From Deltaproteobacteria bacterium (GTDB lineage Bacteria; Bdellovibrionota_B; Oligoflexia; Oligoflexales; CAIYRB01), in NCBI GenBank assembly GCA_016874735.1, contig VGTI01000003.1, positions 1-64,000 on the forward strand: DNA of 64,000 bases, read 5' to 3'. Below are positions 896 through 8,934 of this stretch, piece by piece. Position 1 is the first letter of the stretch. Every line of letters starts with the position of its first letter. The notes under the pieces were generated by a model. It saw only the letters and a program-made list of their open reading frames with translations, searched no databases and had not been told where the DNA came from. The position numbers and the translations under genes were made by a program.

Positions 896-1492
896 ATGTC
901 CAAGGCGGACGTTGCTGCAGAACGTAAAGATCAGATCGTCCGGGCCACGGTCGACTGTATCACCAAATTTGGTTACCACAATTTTTCAATGCAAGATGTG
1001 GCGCGGACCGCTGGAGTGAGCAAAGGCATCATCCATTATTACTTCTTGAATAAAGACGAACTGATGATGTCAGTTCTGGATAAAGTGGCCGGGGACATCG
1101 AAAAAATTCTTGCTTCAGAAATGAGCTCCATAGTTGATAACAAACGGAAGCTAGAGGTTTTCATTGAAGTCTGCTTCGATATTGTTCGGAGCACGAAAGA
1201 ATACTACCAAGTGAATATGGACTTCTGGACGCAGATCAACCAAAAAGACGAAGTTAAGAAGGTGATCGCTCGGCATTATCAGAAGTTCCGCGAGGCCGCG
1301 GCGAATGTAATCAGAGAGGGTATTACCGCTGGTGCATTCAGACCGGTTGACGCAAAAGATTATGCCTCCTACATAATTGCTGTAATCGATGGCTTAAGTC
1401 TACAATGGCTCTTCGATCAGAATTCTTTTGACTACGATCGCATTATCAAAAAAGCTGGCTCACTTGTGGTTGATGGCCTTTTGCAAAAATAA
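896..1492 (+). CDS. TetR-family transcriptional regulator
   Basis: A 198-residue protein with the classic TetR N-terminal helix-turn-helix (about residues 10-55, including SMQDVARTAGVSKGIIHYYF) and an all-helical ligand-binding C-terminus resembling the BetI-type TetR_C group. The ATG is preceded by GGAGAG. It is the first gene of a run of five same-strand genes (TPR protein, thiolase-like, FadJ-like, pyrF) with short gaps or overlaps. TetR proteins beside beta-oxidation-type genes often sense acyl-CoA. That role is inferred here from context only. The adjacent barrel gene at 1-673 could be a second target because it is divergent and close. Confidence 0.92.
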   Translation: MSKADVAAERKDQIVRATVDCITKFGYHNFSMQDVARTAGVSKGIIHYYFLNKDELMMSVLDKVAGDIEKILASEMSSIVDNKRKLEVFIEVCFDIVRSTKEYYQVNMDFWTQINQKDEVKKVIARHYQKFREAAANVIREGITAGAFRPVDAKDYASYIIAVIDGLSLQWLFDQNSFDYDRIIKKAGSLVVDGLLQK

Positions 1493-1513: not shown

Positions 1514-2620
1514 ATGGCCTCACAGTCTGCGCTAGAGGGTGACAGAATTAGAAGTCTCGTCACGAAGGTAGACAACGGAGCTATGGTTGACCCCGGCGAA
1601 AGACAGAAGGCACTCGACCTTTTCGAGCGCTATGAATGTTGGGGGCCTTATTTTCGCTTACTGAACACGATTATCACTGAGAATCCGCGGCAAAGTGAAT
1701 CCTATTTTATTCGCTTGGCTAAAGTTCAGAACCGCTACCTCGAAGATGCTTTTGCTGCTGCGGAATCCTGCGCAAATATGGTCGCGGATCTAAAATTAGG
1801 ATACCTAAGATTTAGCGAAGATATCCTGCCGCAAATCATCGAATTCGAGGACTACATAGCCGAGTCGACGATACTGTCTGCTATCTGTGACTACTTCCCG
1901 ACCGTGATCGATAGAATTTCCTGCCTAGAACGCTTGTGTATGCTCTACGAGAAGAAGACTCATAATGAAAACAGGCTGGTAGCCACCTATGAAAAGTTAC
2001 TTCTCACCGATCCTAGCAACGTGAGGGCGCTGAGATACTTTAAGCTCACCTACACTCAGAGTAACGAGTGGGATCAAGTCGTAGACATTCTACTCAAGCT
2101 CTTACAGGCAGTCCGACAACCTCAGGAAATTTTTCGAGTCGGCCAGGAATTAGCCGCAATTTATCTGTACCAGATGGATAGACCCAATGATGCTCTGTTG
2201 ATTCTGGATTCTCACTGCGCCGACAGCCCACTAGACACGTCAAATATTGCATTTGACGCCTATCAACGTCTAGCTGACTGGGATGGTTGTCTAAAGGTCT
2301 TACGCCAGTGCCTCCTAAATGTCGATTCTGAACGCTCTCGCGCAGTTCTCCATTACAAAATTGGCAATTTCAGCATGCAAATCGGCCGCCTCGACGACGC
2401 CATCGAAAACTTTAGTAAGGCCACAAAAATTGCTCCAGAATTTCTCGATGCATATGAGGGAATCATCGCAGTAAAACTACAGCAGCGAGACTGGGCAGGA
2501 GTCGATCAGTGGCTCGATGGACTCAGTAAAAATACGCAGGATGAAAAGCTGCGTAGTCAGCTTCAACACGCGAGGTCAAGGCTCCGCGACGGTATGGCCC
2601 ATGCCGATCAAATTCAATGA
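1514..2620 (+). CDS. TPR-repeat protein of unknown function
   Basis: A 368-residue, mostly helical, soluble protein with no signal peptide. Tetratricopeptide-like helical pairs are clear in the C-terminal half (for example 'AVLHYKIGNFSMQIGRLDDAIENFSKA', given here only as its position, about residues 278-305) and weaker in the N-terminal half. The ATG has GGAAG upstream and begins 21 bases after the TetR stop. Its 3' end overlaps the next start (2601) by 20 bases, which suggests translational coupling. TPR proteins serve as interaction scaffolds. The partner is unknown, though the neighbours in the operon are obvious candidates. Confidence 0.8.
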   Translation: MASQSALEGDRIRSLVTKVDNGAMVDPGERQKALDLFERYECWGPYFRLLNTIITENPRQSESYFIRLAKVQNRYLEDAFAAAESCANMVADLKLGYLRFSEDILPQIIEFEDYIAESTILSAICDYFPTVIDRISCLERLCMLYEKKTHNENRLVATYEKLLLTDPSNVRALRYFKLTYTQSNEWDQVVDILLKLLQAVRQPQEIFRVGQELAAIYLYQMDRPNDALLILDSHCADSPLDTSNIAFDAYQRLADWDGCLKVLRQCLLNVDSERSRAVLHYKIGNFSMQIGRLDDAIENFSKATKIAPEFLDAYEGIIAVKLQQRDWAGVDQWLDGLSKNTQDEKLRSQLQHARSRLRDGMAHADQIQ

Positions 2621-3659
2621 AGGTCTATTAATACGAGAATACCCAACGGCTCACCTAAAAATCCTGGGTGAAGGCTTTGTGCAGCGCAGCTTTGCCGAAC
2701 TAAGGCCGCAGCGCATGAACCACGTCAAGACTGCTGCAACTCTAGTGCGTCAGATGCAGCTGTCTGATCACCAGACAATGAGTGCAGCTACCGTACTTAT
2801 GCCCTTGCAAAACCACGACATGAGAGAGGTGCAGCGACACCTAGTTGATATTAAAGCTCTTAGCTTTAGACCGTCATGTCTGACTAGTTTCCTAGAAATT
2901 ATTATGCGGCCAAATGAGTTACAAGGTCTTGCAATTCTCAGTGACGGTGACCGTCCCAACACCGATGCTCATGGAGCTTTTGCGCGTGCAATGAGCTCGC
3001 AAAATCCCGGTAAAGAGCGGAGGGTTGCCCGAATTATTGCTGAATCCATGATGAAGGTAAGGGCCAACTACCCGCCGCAGTCGGCGGAGCGGTGGAAATT
3101 AGTAATCGAAGAGCGCCTCGGCAAGGCCACTTTTTTAGATCTTACGGAGCCCAGTTGGAGAGCATCTCTGAAAAGACTGCAATTTTTAGCAGCTCGCGAC
3201 CTCGCTCTTGCAGCAAAAGCCCCCCTTGAAGCACCCGAAGGCTGGGGTATGGCGACTCTACGTATCGCACCACACTCCATCTCTACGAAGGGGATCCAAG
3301 AGCGCCAATTGAAACTTGCATGTCTGAGTGTGCGAATGCCAGGGACTCAAATCAATCTCGATACTGGCGGCAAGCTGTGCTCATTGGCAAATCAGTGGCT
3401 CCAATCACAGTTTGGACTGACTACAAACGATCTCATAAAGCTTGTGATCTCGGATCCTTTTATTGTGATTGCAAACACTATTGCAGATGCCTTTAAACCT
3501 AGTGCATCGATAGCTGCCGCATCCATATACCCCGATGCAGTTTTTGGCTGGCAACCCGTCATCACGGCGGCCGAATTTTGCATGGGACACAAACTACCCG
3601 CGCTTGCAATTTTCACGGGCAACTATCCGGATGTTCATCTCTTGGCGGCAACCGCATGA
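2601..3659 (+). CDS. Divergent thiolase (FadI/FadA)-like protein, probably inactive or altered
   Basis: 352 residues from the ATG at 2601; longer upstream starts would lie inside the TPR gene. No strong family signature is obvious, but reading against the FadI-type thiolase pattern shows several collinear matches. There is a Ser-Cys-Leu-Thr-Ser-Phe segment with Cys93 where thiolases carry the acyl-accepting Cys. A 'GLTTNDLIKLVISDPF' stretch (about 272-287) sits where thiolases have 'GL...DL...E.HEAF'. A Gly-His pair (His330) sits where the catalytic GHP motif lies. The thiolase Glu-Ala-Phe and the second catalytic Cys with its glycine-rich loop are absent, and the protein is shorter than the usual ~390-430 residues. 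The partner gene downstream is FadJ-like, which supports the reading. Thiolase ancestry is inference; the open frame itself is secure because it is ATGA-coupled to the next gene. Confidence 0.5.
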   Translation: MPIKFNEGLLIREYPTAHLKILGEGFVQRSFAELRPQRMNHVKTAATLVRQMQLSDHQTMSAATVLMPLQNHDMREVQRHLVDIKALSFRPSCLTSFLEIIMRPNELQGLAILSDGDRPNTDAHGAFARAMSSQNPGKERRVARIIAESMMKVRANYPPQSAERWKLVIEERLGKATFLDLTEPSWRASLKRLQFLAARDLALAAKAPLEAPEGWGMATLRIAPHSISTKGIQERQLKLACLSVRMPGTQINLDTGGKLCSLANQWLQSQFGLTTNDLIKLVISDPFIVIANTIADAFKPSASIAAASIYPDAVFGWQPVITAAEFCMGHKLPALAIFTGNYPDVHLLAATA

Positions 3660-5569
3660 GTAACAGAATGTCAGACAATATGATTGTTATCTCTCTCCCT
3701 AATGTTCTTTGCTTTTATCAGCAAGCTGCGGGAGAGATTGTAGGGCGACTTGCTCAAATTGCTGAAAACTTGCACAAAACCAATACAAATCAGACTACTG
3801 GGGTGCTTTTACTTCAGTCTGGTGTAGCGCAAGATGCCGTTAGCCCGTGGATATCTGAGCTCGGAAATGATTGTCTTTTCAATGATCTCGTTCAGCGCAT
3901 TGATGCCTGGCGCTGGCTACTTTCCCTAATCCGAAACTCGCCAGTTCCTTGGACCTATGCCGCAGCTGCAAATTGCTATGGTAGTGCGTGGGAATTGGCT
4001 CTGTCATGCCATCATAGATACTGGTTCAATTCAAGGTCGCTACTCGGATTTCCAGAAATAGAGGCCGGCGTCTTTCCACCCGGCGGATTATTGGAATCAA
4101 TGAGTAAACGAGCCGGTAGAACGAGAGAGCGATGGCAAGCAACACCGGTATGCGCCGCCAAGGTGGCACTCAGTGATGGTTTGATCGACTATTGCTCGGA
4201 TGCCAGTAACTGGCACGATCAGGCCCGGAGGATTTTCAGCGAACTGATTGCCGTTCAACCCACTGCAGGTGTCAGGCCGATGAGGCGAACGCGTCCGCGC
4301 CATGATTTTGTATCAGTGGACGCACAGTCAAGACGGGCAGCCTATAAGCAAATTGAAAGCGTCTCCTCGCAGGAAAAGTTTGGCAAGGCAAGCGGTCCGA
4401 CGGCCTGGGATTACTGCTGGCAACTAGTGAGCGAGAGAGCAAAACTGAGGCAACCCGCAGATCTAGGGAGAATAATAAGTTTAATTGCAACTCGCTACCT
4501 CCTTCTACCACAGTATAGTAATTGGCTGGAGAAGCAGCTCGTTACTGCCCCTAGAACGGCGATCACTCTGGTGTCTGAAGCACTCATCGCTTCACCACCG
4601 GTGGCTATAAATCTTACACTAGGGATACCCCCATCTTCCGTACTTTCAAAGTTACTGGAAAACCAGCAACAAGTTTTGTTAGTTGCCAATGATGCTCGCG
4701 AACTTATCCCGGGACTTAATTTACTTTTTGCCCGCATTGAGCGGGCTCTTGGTATCGTCGCAGCTCAACATTTGTGGGAAAGGGGTGTCACTTGGTGTCA
4801 AGGTCAACCAACTGGCTTTAGTGGTCCGGTTCTCGCGTGGACAGCCGATGATTTTTTTAGCGTTTCCGAGGCACAAGTTGAATATCGCTTCTTCCGACTG
4901 AGTGGCAATCATATTGAATCTATTCCCGGTGTTTTAGAATTCTCGCAAGAACCAGCAATCCTACCGAGGACAATAAAGAATATACTCACGCATGTCAGCG
5001 ATGCCGTGGTCCGCAATCCTGATATGTCCCGATCTATCACACCACTTTCCATGCAATTTAGGTCTCTCTTTTTAGACGAACTCATTCGGACGACTTCCTT
5101 TTGTGATCATGATCTGGCTGCCGCTGTGGGCTCTCTGCAGAGATCAGGTTGGGAATTTGCCGGCAGTGAAGATAATTGGGAGCGTTTCCTGAAAATCAGA
5201 AACATCATTAATCCCAACAGAGACGGATCCACTTTAAACTCAAACATGCCTCGATTTGACTTCGAATACACCAGTTGGCGTCAGGCCAAGCAGCTTGCTA
5301 AACGCCTCCCATCAAGAAACCTCCGAAATTGGAATCATGTGAGCCTCAGTCAACACATGGCTACCTACCTAGGGATTCTTACTCGATTGACTGAAACCAC
5401 CAGTGGGGTCGAATTTGGACCAACGTTGGACTTTCTCGCTGGAGTGTCGTTAGGCATACCTCAAGGAATCGGCAGTCCGATGACGTTTTTGAGGCTGAGA
5501 GGTAGTCGCCGTACGGATCATTATGCTAGAAATCATTGGCAACATTTATTTCATTCTGAGCGTACATGA
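3656..5569 (+). CDS. Divergent FadJ/FadB-like multifunctional beta-oxidation protein
   Basis: 637 residues from the ATG at 3656, which overlaps the upstream stop (ATGA). The N-terminal ~200 residues are crotonase-like. A 'YGSAWELALSCHHRYWF' segment (about 108-124) and 'GFPEIEAGVFPPGG' (131-144) align with the enoyl-CoA hydratase core and keep both catalytic glutamates (Glu113, Glu134). The first oxyanion motif (AGADI) is not recognisable. Residues ~318-366 align with the start of the 3-hydroxyacyl-CoA dehydrogenase Rossmann fold, ending in 'LLFARIERALG', but the dinucleotide loop GxGxxG reads G-I-P-P-S-S. The C-terminal ~520-590 region resembles the HADH C-terminal helices. So the architecture is that of FadJ (usually ~710 residues), with the NAD site apparently destroyed. 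It is also ATGA-coupled to pyrF. Confidence 0.6.
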   Translation: MSNRMSDNMIVISLPNVLCFYQQAAGEIVGRLAQIAENLHKTNTNQTTGVLLLQSGVAQDAVSPWISELGNDCLFNDLVQRIDAWRWLLSLIRNSPVPWTYAAAANCYGSAWELALSCHHRYWFNSRSLLGFPEIEAGVFPPGGLLESMSKRAGRTRERWQATPVCAAKVALSDGLIDYCSDASNWHDQARRIFSELIAVQPTAGVRPMRRTRPRHDFVSVDAQSRRAAYKQIESVSSQEKFGKASGPTAWDYCWQLVSERAKLRQPADLGRIISLIATRYLLLPQYSNWLEKQLVTAPRTAITLVSEALIASPPVAINLTLGIPPSSVLSKLLENQQQVLLVANDARELIPGLNLLFARIERALGIVAAQHLWERGVTWCQGQPTGFSGPVLAWTADDFFSVSEAQVEYRFFRLSGNHIESIPGVLEFSQEPAILPRTIKNILTHVSDAVVRNPDMSRSITPLSMQFRSLFLDELIRTTSFCDHDLAAAVGSLQRSGWEFAGSEDNWERFLKIRNIINPNRDGSTLNSNMPRFDFEYTSWRQAKQLAKRLPSRNLRNWNHVSLSQHMATYLGILTRLTETTSGVEFGPTLDFLAGVSLGIPQGIGSPMTFLRLRGSRRTDHYARNHWQHLFHSERT

Positions 5570-6441
5570 CCTTGATACAATCCAGCTTCGTTAATTCCCT
5601 GTCCTCTAAAATCCGCTCTGTTGGTAATGCACTATGCGTAGGGTGTGACCCGGACATATTAGAGTCACCCAGATTCACCCGGGAATGGCTTGAACGCCAT
5701 GGGCCCGTCTCTTTTCTCGAGAATTTTAGTCGTTCTTTAATCGAGGCTGCCGCTGATAAGGTACCGGCCATCAAGTTCCAAAGTGCCTTTTTTGAGGCGT
5801 GGGGCCCAGACGGTTTCCGAGTATTGCAGTCAGCAATAAAATTTGCCAACGAGTGCGGCTTGTTGACTATACTTGATGCCAAAAGAGGCGACATCTCTTC
5901 AACTATGCGAGCTTACGGACAGATGGCATTCGATGTGATGGCAGCCGACGCACTTACAGTCACCCCCTATATGGGTACCGACACAGTGTCGCCCCTCGAG
6001 CCTTGGCTCAAGAGGGGGCGTGGAGTTTATCTAGTATGGGTGAGCTCCAATGCGAGTGGTGCGTCAGTCCAGGATTGCCCCATAGGGCCCACCAATGAAC
6101 CTCTATCAACTCGAATTTATCAAGAAATCCTCAATTATTTTGAAGAAGTTAAATTGAGCGACTCATTTGGACTCGTCGTAGGTGCTACCCGAGTATCAAG
6201 TATCGAGTATAAAACTCGGTCAAGCCTCCTTAATAAGGCACTTTTGATGCCGGGCGTAGGAGCCCAGGGCGGAACAATCACCCCAGAACTGCGCCGCCTT
6301 GTGGAGAGTGGTCGAACTTTAGTTCCACAGTCTAGACAGCTAAGTAGGGGTACACCCGACCTAAAACATTGGGACGATTTACGAGATCATGTGAATCAGC
6401 AGATATACAGTGCGACGAGCCATCTGCTTGTGACAACTTAA
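5566..6441 (+). CDS. pyrF: Orotidine-5'-phosphate decarboxylase
   Basis: A 291-residue OMP decarboxylase that makes UMP in de novo pyrimidine synthesis. The N-terminal CVGCDPD motif, the catalytic LDAKRGDIS motif (about residues 104-112) and the phosphate-binding 'LMPGVGAQGG' near the C-terminus mark it. Its length and spacing fit the longer 'type 2' PyrF found in actinobacteria, myxobacteria and others. The start overlaps the preceding stop as ATGA, so it is the last gene of the TetR-TPR-thiolase-like-FadJ-like operon, an unusual neighbourhood for pyrF. Its stop overlaps the stop of the convergent TPR gene. Confidence 0.95.
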   Translation: MTLIQSSFVNSLSSKIRSVGNALCVGCDPDILESPRFTREWLERHGPVSFLENFSRSLIEAAADKVPAIKFQSAFFEAWGPDGFRVLQSAIKFANECGLLTILDAKRGDISSTMRAYGQMAFDVMAADALTVTPYMGTDTVSPLEPWLKRGRGVYLVWVSSNASGASVQDCPIGPTNEPLSTRIYQEILNYFEEVKLSDSFGLVVGATRVSSIEYKTRSSLLNKALLMPGVGAQGGTITPELRRLVESGRTLVPQSRQLSRGTPDLKHWDDLRDHVNQQIYSATSHLLVTT

Positions 6442-7412
6442 ATCGCCGGGGTAATGCCTCCCAGCAGTGTTGAAGCTAGGTCTAACCAGCCAACGTCGTG
6501 TAGTCCCCTCAAAACCTGTGGGAGCGCGCGTACAAGGTCAGACTTCGTCGACATACCTACCCATTTAGCCTGATTCATGATCTTCACTGCGTCGGGCTTT
6601 CGACCCGTACGACAGGCCAACCTAAGTAATGTAAATACGACGGTCGGGTTTTCGGAGAATGCTGTCATCAACTTAGCGCCAACTTCAAATGCCTCCTGAG
6701 CAAGTGCTAATGGAACATTATTCTCAAGTGCAACCAATGCCATGTAAAGACTGACTTCAAAATTATTGGGAGATAGCTCCCGACACTGACGCAAAGCGAC
6801 GAACGCTCGCTCAGGGTCTCCAGAGATGTGCCTTGCCTTAGCCAATTGAAACCAAGCGATGGTCTCGGATCCAGAAAGCCTCGTTGCAATTTCTAAAACC
6901 TCAACGGCTTCTGTGCACCGACCGAGTTCAAGTAGCGCCTGCCCATGCAGCGTGTACAGCGGGGCAAACGGTTGATCGACTTTTTCACACTCTGCAATGC
7001 AATATTCCAACCGCCCGGTATTTAAGGCAGTCCAGGCCGCAAAAAATCTAAAAACCGCGAGTCTTGTGGAGTCAGCTCCTGATTTCATGGCTTCAAAAAA
7101 CTGATCGCCCTGATTTTTACGTACCGATTGTTCGGCAATCAACCCTACGAGCTCCATCATCTGAGCGCCATGACTATCGGCGAGCTCTTCGGCAAGCAGA
7201 AAGTCCTGCAGCGGATTTTTGGATTTTTGCAAAAACAAACGAAAAGCATCTAGCCATCTTCTGATGCCCACAGACTCGACAGAATGTATAGCATCACACA
7301 ATCGCCAAACTAAAAAATCAGGCAATTTTTCAAGTCCAGGTGGCATTTGCGCTTGTTGATTAAACCATCGCTGAAGTCTTGGAAAGATAGACAACTGAGC
7401 AAGTGTTTCCAC
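6438..7412 (-). CDS. TPR-like repeat protein
   Basis: A 324-residue soluble helical protein. It starts at a GTG at 7412 with GGAGA six bases upstream. TPR-like pairs are visible in the middle (for example 'LYTLHGQALLELGRCTEAVEVL' region and 'AWFQLAKARHISGDPERAFVAL', about residues 150-210). No catalytic domain, signal peptide or membrane segment is seen. It is convergent with pyrF and overlaps it by the stop codons. It stands alone as a transcription unit, 130 bases from the divergent ComEC-like gene. Function unknown. Confidence 0.78.
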   Translation of the reverse strand: METLAQLSIFPRLQRWFNQQAQMPPGLEKLPDFLVWRLCDAIHSVESVGIRRWLDAFRLFLQKSKNPLQDFLLAEELADSHGAQMMELVGLIAEQSVRKNQGDQFFEAMKSGADSTRLAVFRFFAAWTALNTGRLEYCIAECEKVDQPFAPLYTLHGQALLELGRCTEAVEVLEIATRLSGSETIAWFQLAKARHISGDPERAFVALRQCRELSPNNFEVSLYMALVALENNVPLALAQEAFEVGAKLMTAFSENPTVVFTLLRLACRTGRKPDAVKIMNQAKWVGMSTKSDLVRALPQVLRGLHDVGWLDLASTLLGGITPAI

Positions 7413-7542
7413 TGCATCTCCATGCCCTAGAGGTTATCTTAGTTTCATTGCCTTAGTTTACCACGACCAATATCTGGTAGTTGGTTTATATGTCCGTTCC
7501 AGCCTATTGTCGGAAGAGGCACGAAGTCGTATTTATTCGTGA

Positions 7543-8934
7543 ATGATTGGACTTTGGCTCACAAGCTTCTCGATTGGAAACCTGCTCGCACAATGCAGGT
7601 TAATTCAGCCGTTTCAGACAAGATGCTCGACCGTTTTACTTTTGTTTTCCGTGGTCCTCTTTTTTCTTTCACGGATAAAGAACTTTAGAAATTTATTCCA
7701 AATCTCACCGCCTCAAATAGTCGCCGTATGTTTGGCGCTGATTTGGTCTAGTAATCATAGCGCTCCCTCACTCGAATTCGGGGACTCTGGGCCCTTTAAC
7801 CCATTTTTCGGAGTGTTTACGACGAATCGGGGACGCGGTCCCCTTTTAATTAAAACACCGTCGGGACTGTTTCAAACATATGGAAATAGGAGTTCCATGG
7901 ACTCGGGTGAGGTCACGGTGACTGCTGATGCCACACTTTTTAGACGGCACAGATCTTACTTCAGTCACTCGAACGAATTACATACCAATTCAACAATCGA
8001 TCCTGCCGAGAGGAGGATTCGCCAATGGTTTGCTAAGAGTGCACGGAGCCTGGGATTAAGGCAAATGAGATGGCTCAAGGCTGTAATTTTGGGCGAAATG
8101 GATCAACTGCCTCGTGATCTGCACCGGGCTGTCAAAGCAACTGGTCTCCATCATCTTCTAGTAATAAGCGGCATCCACCTAACTGTAGTGACTCAACTCA
8201 CTTTTCTTGCGCTAGGCTTCATACCTACCACTTTATATGCCCTACGTTTGATATCGGCTACGCGATGGCTTGACGTACAAGCGATCATGCGATTGATTAA
8301 TACGTCAATCTCAGTCATGTATTTCATACTTGTTGGATGTCCACCCAATGCCGAGCGAGCGCTAATCGCCACTGTGACCTACAATATTTTTCGGGTATTT
8401 GTAGGATCACCACCGGCCGTAACGCACCTGCAGGTCATGCTGCTTTTACAGTCCCTAATTTTTCCAATCGGCTTTATCGGTGAGGCGAATTTACTCGGCT
8501 GGGGCGCCTATCTAATACTAGCTCACACTAGAATTCGATTGGGTTTTCGAAATAAGCACGGTTTACATGCATTGATGCAGTCGCAGATATCGCTATGTTT
8601 ACTGGGCACCGCGGTATTTGGCGAACTTAACTTTTTACCAATACTGTTTATGCCAGCCTTGATGCCGGTCTTTACATGCCTTCTGACGATGACTGGGATG
8701 GCTTTTTTGTTGCCCGAGACACTCCAGCCTGAGATCGCGCTCAGCCAACTTCACAGAGCACTTCAGTGGCTGTTATTAACACTCGAAACCGCTGTGACAC
8801 GTTGGCCATGGCTAAGTATTGGTCATGACGTTTTGCCACCTTGGTTCAGATATAGTGCGCTAATCTTGTCGGCAGTTATTTTGCTTAATGCGATAAGGGC
8901 ACTAAGCACATGTCAATCGACAACCGATTTTTAA
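7543..8934 (+). CDS. ComEC/Rec2-like membrane protein, short form lacking the nuclease-like domain
   Basis: 463 residues with several hydrophobic segments. Residues 176-216 carry the ComEC competence-domain signature: 'LKAVILGEMDQLPRDLH', then 'ATGLHHLLVISGIHLTVV'. It is followed by 'ILVGCPPNAERALIA', matching the family's 'xxxGxxPSxxRA' helix. An OB-like beta region precedes it (about 85-140). ComEC is the inner-membrane channel for single-stranded DNA during natural transformation. Full-length proteins are usually ~700-800 residues and end in a metallo-beta-lactamase-like domain. Here the protein ends after the competence-domain helices, and the next gene is on the opposite strand. So this is either a naturally minimal ComEC or a truncated one. 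No frame-shifted remainder is seen in the 50 bases downstream. Confidence 0.8.
   Translation: MIGLWLTSFSIGNLLAQCRLIQPFQTRCSTVLLLFSVVLFFLSRIKNFRNLFQISPPQIVAVCLALIWSSNHSAPSLEFGDSGPFNPFFGVFTTNRGRGPLLIKTPSGLFQTYGNRSSMDSGEVTVTADATLFRRHRSYFSHSNELHTNSTIDPAERRIRQWFAKSARSLGLRQMRWLKAVILGEMDQLPRDLHRAVKATGLHHLLVISGIHLTVVTQLTFLALGFIPTTLYALRLISATRWLDVQAIMRLINTSISVMYFILVGCPPNAERALIATVTYNIFRVFVGSPPAVTHLQVMLLLQSLIFPIGFIGEANLLGWGAYLILAHTRIRLGFRNKHGLHALMQSQISLCLLGTAVFGELNFLPILFMPALMPVFTCLLTMTGMAFLLPETLQPEIALSQLHRALQWLLLTLETAVTRWPWLSIGHDVLPPWFRYSALILSAVILLNAIRALSTCQSTTDF

Follow-up and report, generated by a model that had tools for sequence, protein, structure and literature searches.

A probable FadI/FadJ-type protein pair, stripped of most catalytic residues, in a TetR-TPR operon of the Oligoflexales

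Introduction

The described system closest to the locus studied here is the trifunctional enzyme formed by FadI (the beta or thiolase subunit) and FadJ (the alpha subunit) of E. coli (PDB 6ysv, 8bnu), whose genes are adjacent, the thiolase-fold protein being followed by the FadJ-fold protein. Lone thiolase-fold proteins without catalysis are also known, the precedent being TLP1 of Mycobacterium smegmatis, which has the thiolase fold, does not conserve the catalytic residues, shows no thiolase activity and is of unknown function (PMC3406046). The TLP1 protein is monomeric and carries an additional barrel domain at its C-terminus; no FadJ-like partner has been described for it (PMC3406046). Moreover, according to the two reports, the Sal/Shy steroid side-chain aldolase/hydratase complexes combine a repurposed thiolase-like subunit with a hydratase subunit, and complexes related to them use catalytically inert partner domains (PMC12329534, PMC11321319). 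In the open-access literature we found no description of a stripped pair comprising both subunits of the beta-oxidation complex and kept across an order.

Here, we analysed a window of 64,000 nucleotides from a bacterium of the order Oligoflexales, in which two adjacent genes, termed gA and gB, had originally been predicted to encode a decayed or repurposed FadI/FadJ pair coupled to pyrF. The locus shares with E. coli FadI/FadJ the adjacency and order of the two genes and the alignment of gB over most of FadJ. It differs from the E. coli system in a gA protein that is shorter, carries no thiolase fingerprints and has no detectable sequence link to FadI, and in a gB protein that is about 80 residues shorter and in which both the NAD loop and the His motif of the dehydrogenase are missing. 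With TLP1, gA shares a predicted thiolase fold without catalytic residues; the gA chain (352 aa), however, stops with the thiolase core and has no added domain, which sets it apart from TLP1-type proteins with their C-terminal barrel. The Sal/Shy complexes are unlike gA/gB in being active enzymes with MaoC/DUF35 partners instead of FadJ-type proteins.

Results and Discussion

Organisation of the locus

The genes of the operon and the region of gB that harbours the hydratase glutamates are the following:

896..1492, + strand: TetR-family regulator (BetI/FadR-like), 198 aa; Pfam TetR_N and TetR_C_6
1514..2620, + strand: TPR-repeat protein, 368 aa, encoded second in the operon; Pfam TPR_14 and TPR_19
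2601..3659, + strand: gA, 352 aa, protein of predicted thiolase fold without thiolase fingerprints, in the FadI position; AlphaFold2 model and PDB matches
3656..5569, + strand: gB, 637 aa, FadJ-like multifunctional protein with a crotonase domain and a PP motif replacing the NAD loop; hhalign and Foldseek
3983..4072, + strand: hydratase-glutamate region, gB residues 110-139 (SAWELALSCHHRY...GFPEIEAG)
5566..6441, + strand: pyrF, orotidine-5'-phosphate decarboxylase; NCBIfam pyrF_sub2, 4.9e-55, above cut-off

At both the gA/gB and the gB/pyrF boundary the genes share an ATGA overlap, which bears out the coupling noted earlier, and the TPR gene overlaps gA by 20 bases.

gB is related to FadJ

Searches with the single gB sequence yielded weak matches that were confined to the crotonase domain and remained below the cut-offs (Pfam ECH_1, E=0.0026; NCBIfam FadJ, E=5e-5); the bit scores for NCBIfam FadJ, 21.6 and 19.9 against cut-offs of 869 and 968, fall short of the curated family. 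A profile built from 25 orthologues, the window protein included, retrieved FadJ as its best match in the PDB (E ~1.6e-10), and hhalign aligned gB with canonical FadJ sequences across 588 columns (E=6.5e-16). Most of this score is carried by the crotonase part, which alone matched FadJ with E=9.5e-17 in the profile-profile comparison. The C-terminal half alone gave a collinear and weak match (E=0.012) with a score of 28.8, the maximum among 20 column-shuffled controls being 24.3. In addition, the AlphaFold2 model of gB (pLDDT 79, pTM 0.67) resembles the alpha chains of trifunctional enzymes over the whole chain, the top PDB match in Foldseek being E. coli FadJ (6ysv, E=1.1e-15). By sequence and predicted fold gB is a FadJ-type protein, and its crotonase domain is unmistakable.

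The two hydratase glutamate sites correspond to E113 and E134, and the window protein has a glutamate at both, as originally described. The position of the NAD-binding loop reads LGIPPSSVLS in the window protein, and the GxGxxG motif has given way to other residues in each of the 25 gB sequences, in agreement with the earlier observation; P326 within the alignment is invariant (25/25). The dehydrogenase His motif MHFFSPV falls into an alignment gap when gB is compared with canonical FadJ.

The main rival to a role of the pair as scaffold or sensor is surviving hydratase activity, in that gB would be an active enoyl-CoA hydratase or another enzyme of the crotonase type whose C-terminal half is non-catalytic, gA would serve as its structural partner, and the dehydrogenase and thiolase steps would be left to intact enzymes. 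The two glutamates in the window protein, their joint presence in 15 of the 25 sequences and the crotonase motif region, the part of gB with the highest conservation, speak for this explanation. However, the first site is Glu in 19/25 and Asp in 6/25 sequences, the second is Glu in 21/25 and Asp, Gln or Gly in the remaining 4/25, and the oxyanion GGG is altered. Moreover, in one relative with the gene order TetR-gB-pyrF (L113:7649-8629) gB comprises the C-terminal half only (326 aa), the remainder thus persisting without a crotonase domain. We therefore regard an active hydratase as unlikely.

The same genome encodes intact thiolase/FadJ pairs

At least two intact thiolase/FadJ pairs, whose alignments show the catalytic residues, are encoded by the genome from which the window is derived, one on contig C3 (about 123.7-127.2 kb) and one on contig C52 (about 7.7-11.1 kb); the check for a second intact fadIJ proposed with the original prediction hence returned two. 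In these pairs the thiolase gene adjoins that of FadJ, and gA is always found directly upstream of gB. All 19 relatives searched have thiolases.

It is a known pattern that pseudoenzyme subunits regulate their active relatives. The intact pairs in the same genome, together with this pattern, would fit an explanation in which gA and gB act as pseudo-subunits with a regulatory function, joining or tuning the cell's intact FadI/FadJ complexes instead of assembling into a separate complex. Identity to the window proteins decreases from TetR (61-94%) to the TPR protein (27-86%), gB (17-61%) and gA (9-52%), and the divergence of gA and gB is far faster than expected for proteins tied to slowly evolving partners, which renders such a role distinctly improbable.

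The predicted fold of gA is that of a thiolase

For gA, AlphaFold2 produced a confident model (pLDDT 84, pTM 0.87), and Foldseek returned nothing but thiolases among the 50 best PDB matches (best E=3.1e-9, probability 1.0, TM about 0.5-0.6). At the sequence level, no signal linking gA to thiolases was obtained with hmmscan, with hmmsearch on PDB sequences or with hhalign employing 9 and then 30 thiolases, and neither Pfam nor NCBIfam contains a match to gA. It is thus the predicted fold that points to thiolase kinship. A structure search showing neither a thiolase nor an HADH fold had been named in advance as a finding that would refute the FadI/FadJ idea; the search returned thiolase and FadJ folds for the two predicted models. 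The proposed kinship consequently holds for gB by sequence and fold and for gA by predicted fold, the sequence link of gA having gone undetected.

Because the secondary-structure elements of the gA model run, in our reading, in thiolase order, we infer that G-W-Q-P (residues 316-319) may occupy the place of the thiolase G-H-P; position 318 is His in 9/25, Gln in 6/25 and Asn in 6/25 orthologues. The alignment of the 25 gA sequences contains neither a conserved nucleophilic Cys nor a GHP motif or a CxG loop, in line with the missing second catalytic Cys loop reported before. The open reading frames, their coordinates and the residues were all found as originally described; the reading of Cys93 and Gly-His 330 as thiolase remnants did not hold. 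Since Cys93 is unique to the window protein (1/25) and His330 occurs in 2/25 orthologues, past the helix that follows the presumed GHP equivalent, these residues are coincidences, although the guess at the family was right.

The lack of a sequence signal between gA and thiolases with any profile and the TM values of only about 0.5-0.6 leave room for a further explanation: gA would be no relative of thiolases, its likeness being convergent or an artefact, gB would be a crotonase-derived protein of another design, and the resemblance to FadI/FadJ would be partly accidental. In contrast, the Foldseek probability is 1.0 with thiolases alone among the top 50 matches, gB matches the alpha chain of the trifunctional enzyme over its whole length, and the gene order is that of a thiolase followed by FadJ. 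An accidental likeness is, in our judgement, very unlikely, and gA and gB are probably a stripped FadI/FadJ-type pair.

gA and gB are conserved across the order Oligoflexales

The arrangement TetR-TPR-gA-gB, followed by pyrF or lpxC, was found across the order Oligoflexales in many families. Of the 58 genomes of the class, 25 were positive in a profile search with gA, and none of the 15 genomes outside the order was. More divergent pairs are present in four further loci (L081-L083 and L086; hhalign 5.6e-5 to gA and 1.1e-14 to gB). In two dozen loci the frames are open and syntenic and the overlapping starts are kept, as is the predicted order of the thiolase-like gene before the multifunctional one. 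Relatives with stop codons in these frames had been named as a finding that would refute the original reading, and none of the gA and gB frames in the relatives examined contains one. Nei-Gojobori estimates, which comprise few pairs, gave dN/dS values of 0.08-0.11 for gA, 0.11-0.12 for gB and 0.14-0.26 for pyrF in two independent close pairs. Hence, gA and gB are under strong purifying selection, with dN/dS no higher than that of pyrF, and they are constrained, yet in a manner unlike an enzyme active site.

Neither broken frames nor relaxed selection, as expected of pseudogenes, was found for gA or gB. Since all frames are open and dN/dS is about 0.1, the pair is conserved and not decayed; the view that both genes are under selection for something stands, and the description of the pair as decayed has to be abandoned.

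The composition of the operon varies at its margins. One locus has TetR-TPR-pyrF without the gA/gB pair (L090), in two others lpxC follows TetR (L104, L106), and in another the TPR gene is absent and the pair is kept (L101). In L108 (positions 4266-6323) gB (685 aa) follows TetR directly, and neither a TPR gene nor gA was recognised there. In Silvanigrellales-like genomes, the place of gA/gB after TetR-TPR is taken by a conserved protein of about 436-451 aa (L111:8806-10161, L112:6449-7801, L117:2522-3832), for which no Pfam match was obtained in the two loci tested (L112, L117). Eroding remnants nearing loss, to which fast divergence and a missing or reduced pair in L090, L104, L106, L108 and L113 might point, are highly improbable given dN/dS of about 0.1 in two independent close pairs, not above pyrF, and the open frames and preserved overlapping starts of all loci.

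In other families the gene after the pair is lpxC, which makes pyrF a neighbour and not an obligatory partner. A functional tie to pyrF, as suggested by the coupling of the genes, was therefore dismissed; the lineage represented by L090, moreover, retains TetR-TPR-pyrF in the absence of gA/gB. Likewise, the correlation of tree distances among gA, gB and the TPR protein, although positive, was discarded as evidence for partnership, since lpxC correlates alike and the signal is not specific.

A putative role as scaffold or sensor

We read gA and gB as a putative pseudo-trifunctional enzyme, probably a catalytically stripped relative of the trifunctional-enzyme subunits, present since an Oligoflexales ancestor and held in the TetR-TPR-gA-gB operon. 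The two proteins probably still bind each other in the manner of the alpha and beta subunits. The putative complex would no longer perform beta-oxidation and would bind acyl-CoA or a lipid ligand, probably via the crotonase pocket; the TPR protein could be its docking partner and the TetR protein probably sets its level. The complex would then act as a scaffold or sensor in lipid metabolism.

The claim as a whole, a stripped FadI/FadJ-type pair acting as an acyl-CoA-binding scaffold or sensor, is possible, at somewhat less than an even chance. The mechanism taken by itself, a scaffold or sensor, is tentative. The fullest version, in which, within one order, both trifunctional-enzyme subunits became an acyl-CoA sensor or scaffold that lacks catalysis and acts together with a dedicated TPR protein under the control of a very conserved TetR regulator, is rather doubtful. 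If true, the pair would offer a compact means of asking what remains for a metabolic complex to do after the loss of its chemistry, and this in the little-studied Oligoflexales, a group of bacteria about whose lipid biology almost nothing is known.

The TetR regulator and adjoining genes

The TetR protein matched the NCBIfam models for BetI (2.5e-26) and Bacillus-type FadR (2e-22), both below cut-off. No other gene of the operon comes near that of TetR in conservation, and the protein retains more than 50% identity in the Silvanigrellales as well. Upstream of TetR, no palindrome conserved throughout the order was found. At positions 767-777 of the window, a genus-level motif, CCAANCGATTG, recurs in the genomes of the genus above the reversed control. 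It was considered as the operator of a regulon and rejected; since all other sites inspected lie inside ORFs, the motif defines no regulon. In the TetR promoter of the window, positions 767-777 read CCAAGCGATTG, which is conserved in the genus. The contrast between the extraordinarily conserved TetR protein and the fast-diverging remainder of the operon hints at a regulon of wider extent. In several families, two neighbours of the operon, located at positions 6438-8934 of the window and encoding a further TPR protein (- strand) and a ComEC-like competence protein (+ strand), remain next to it.
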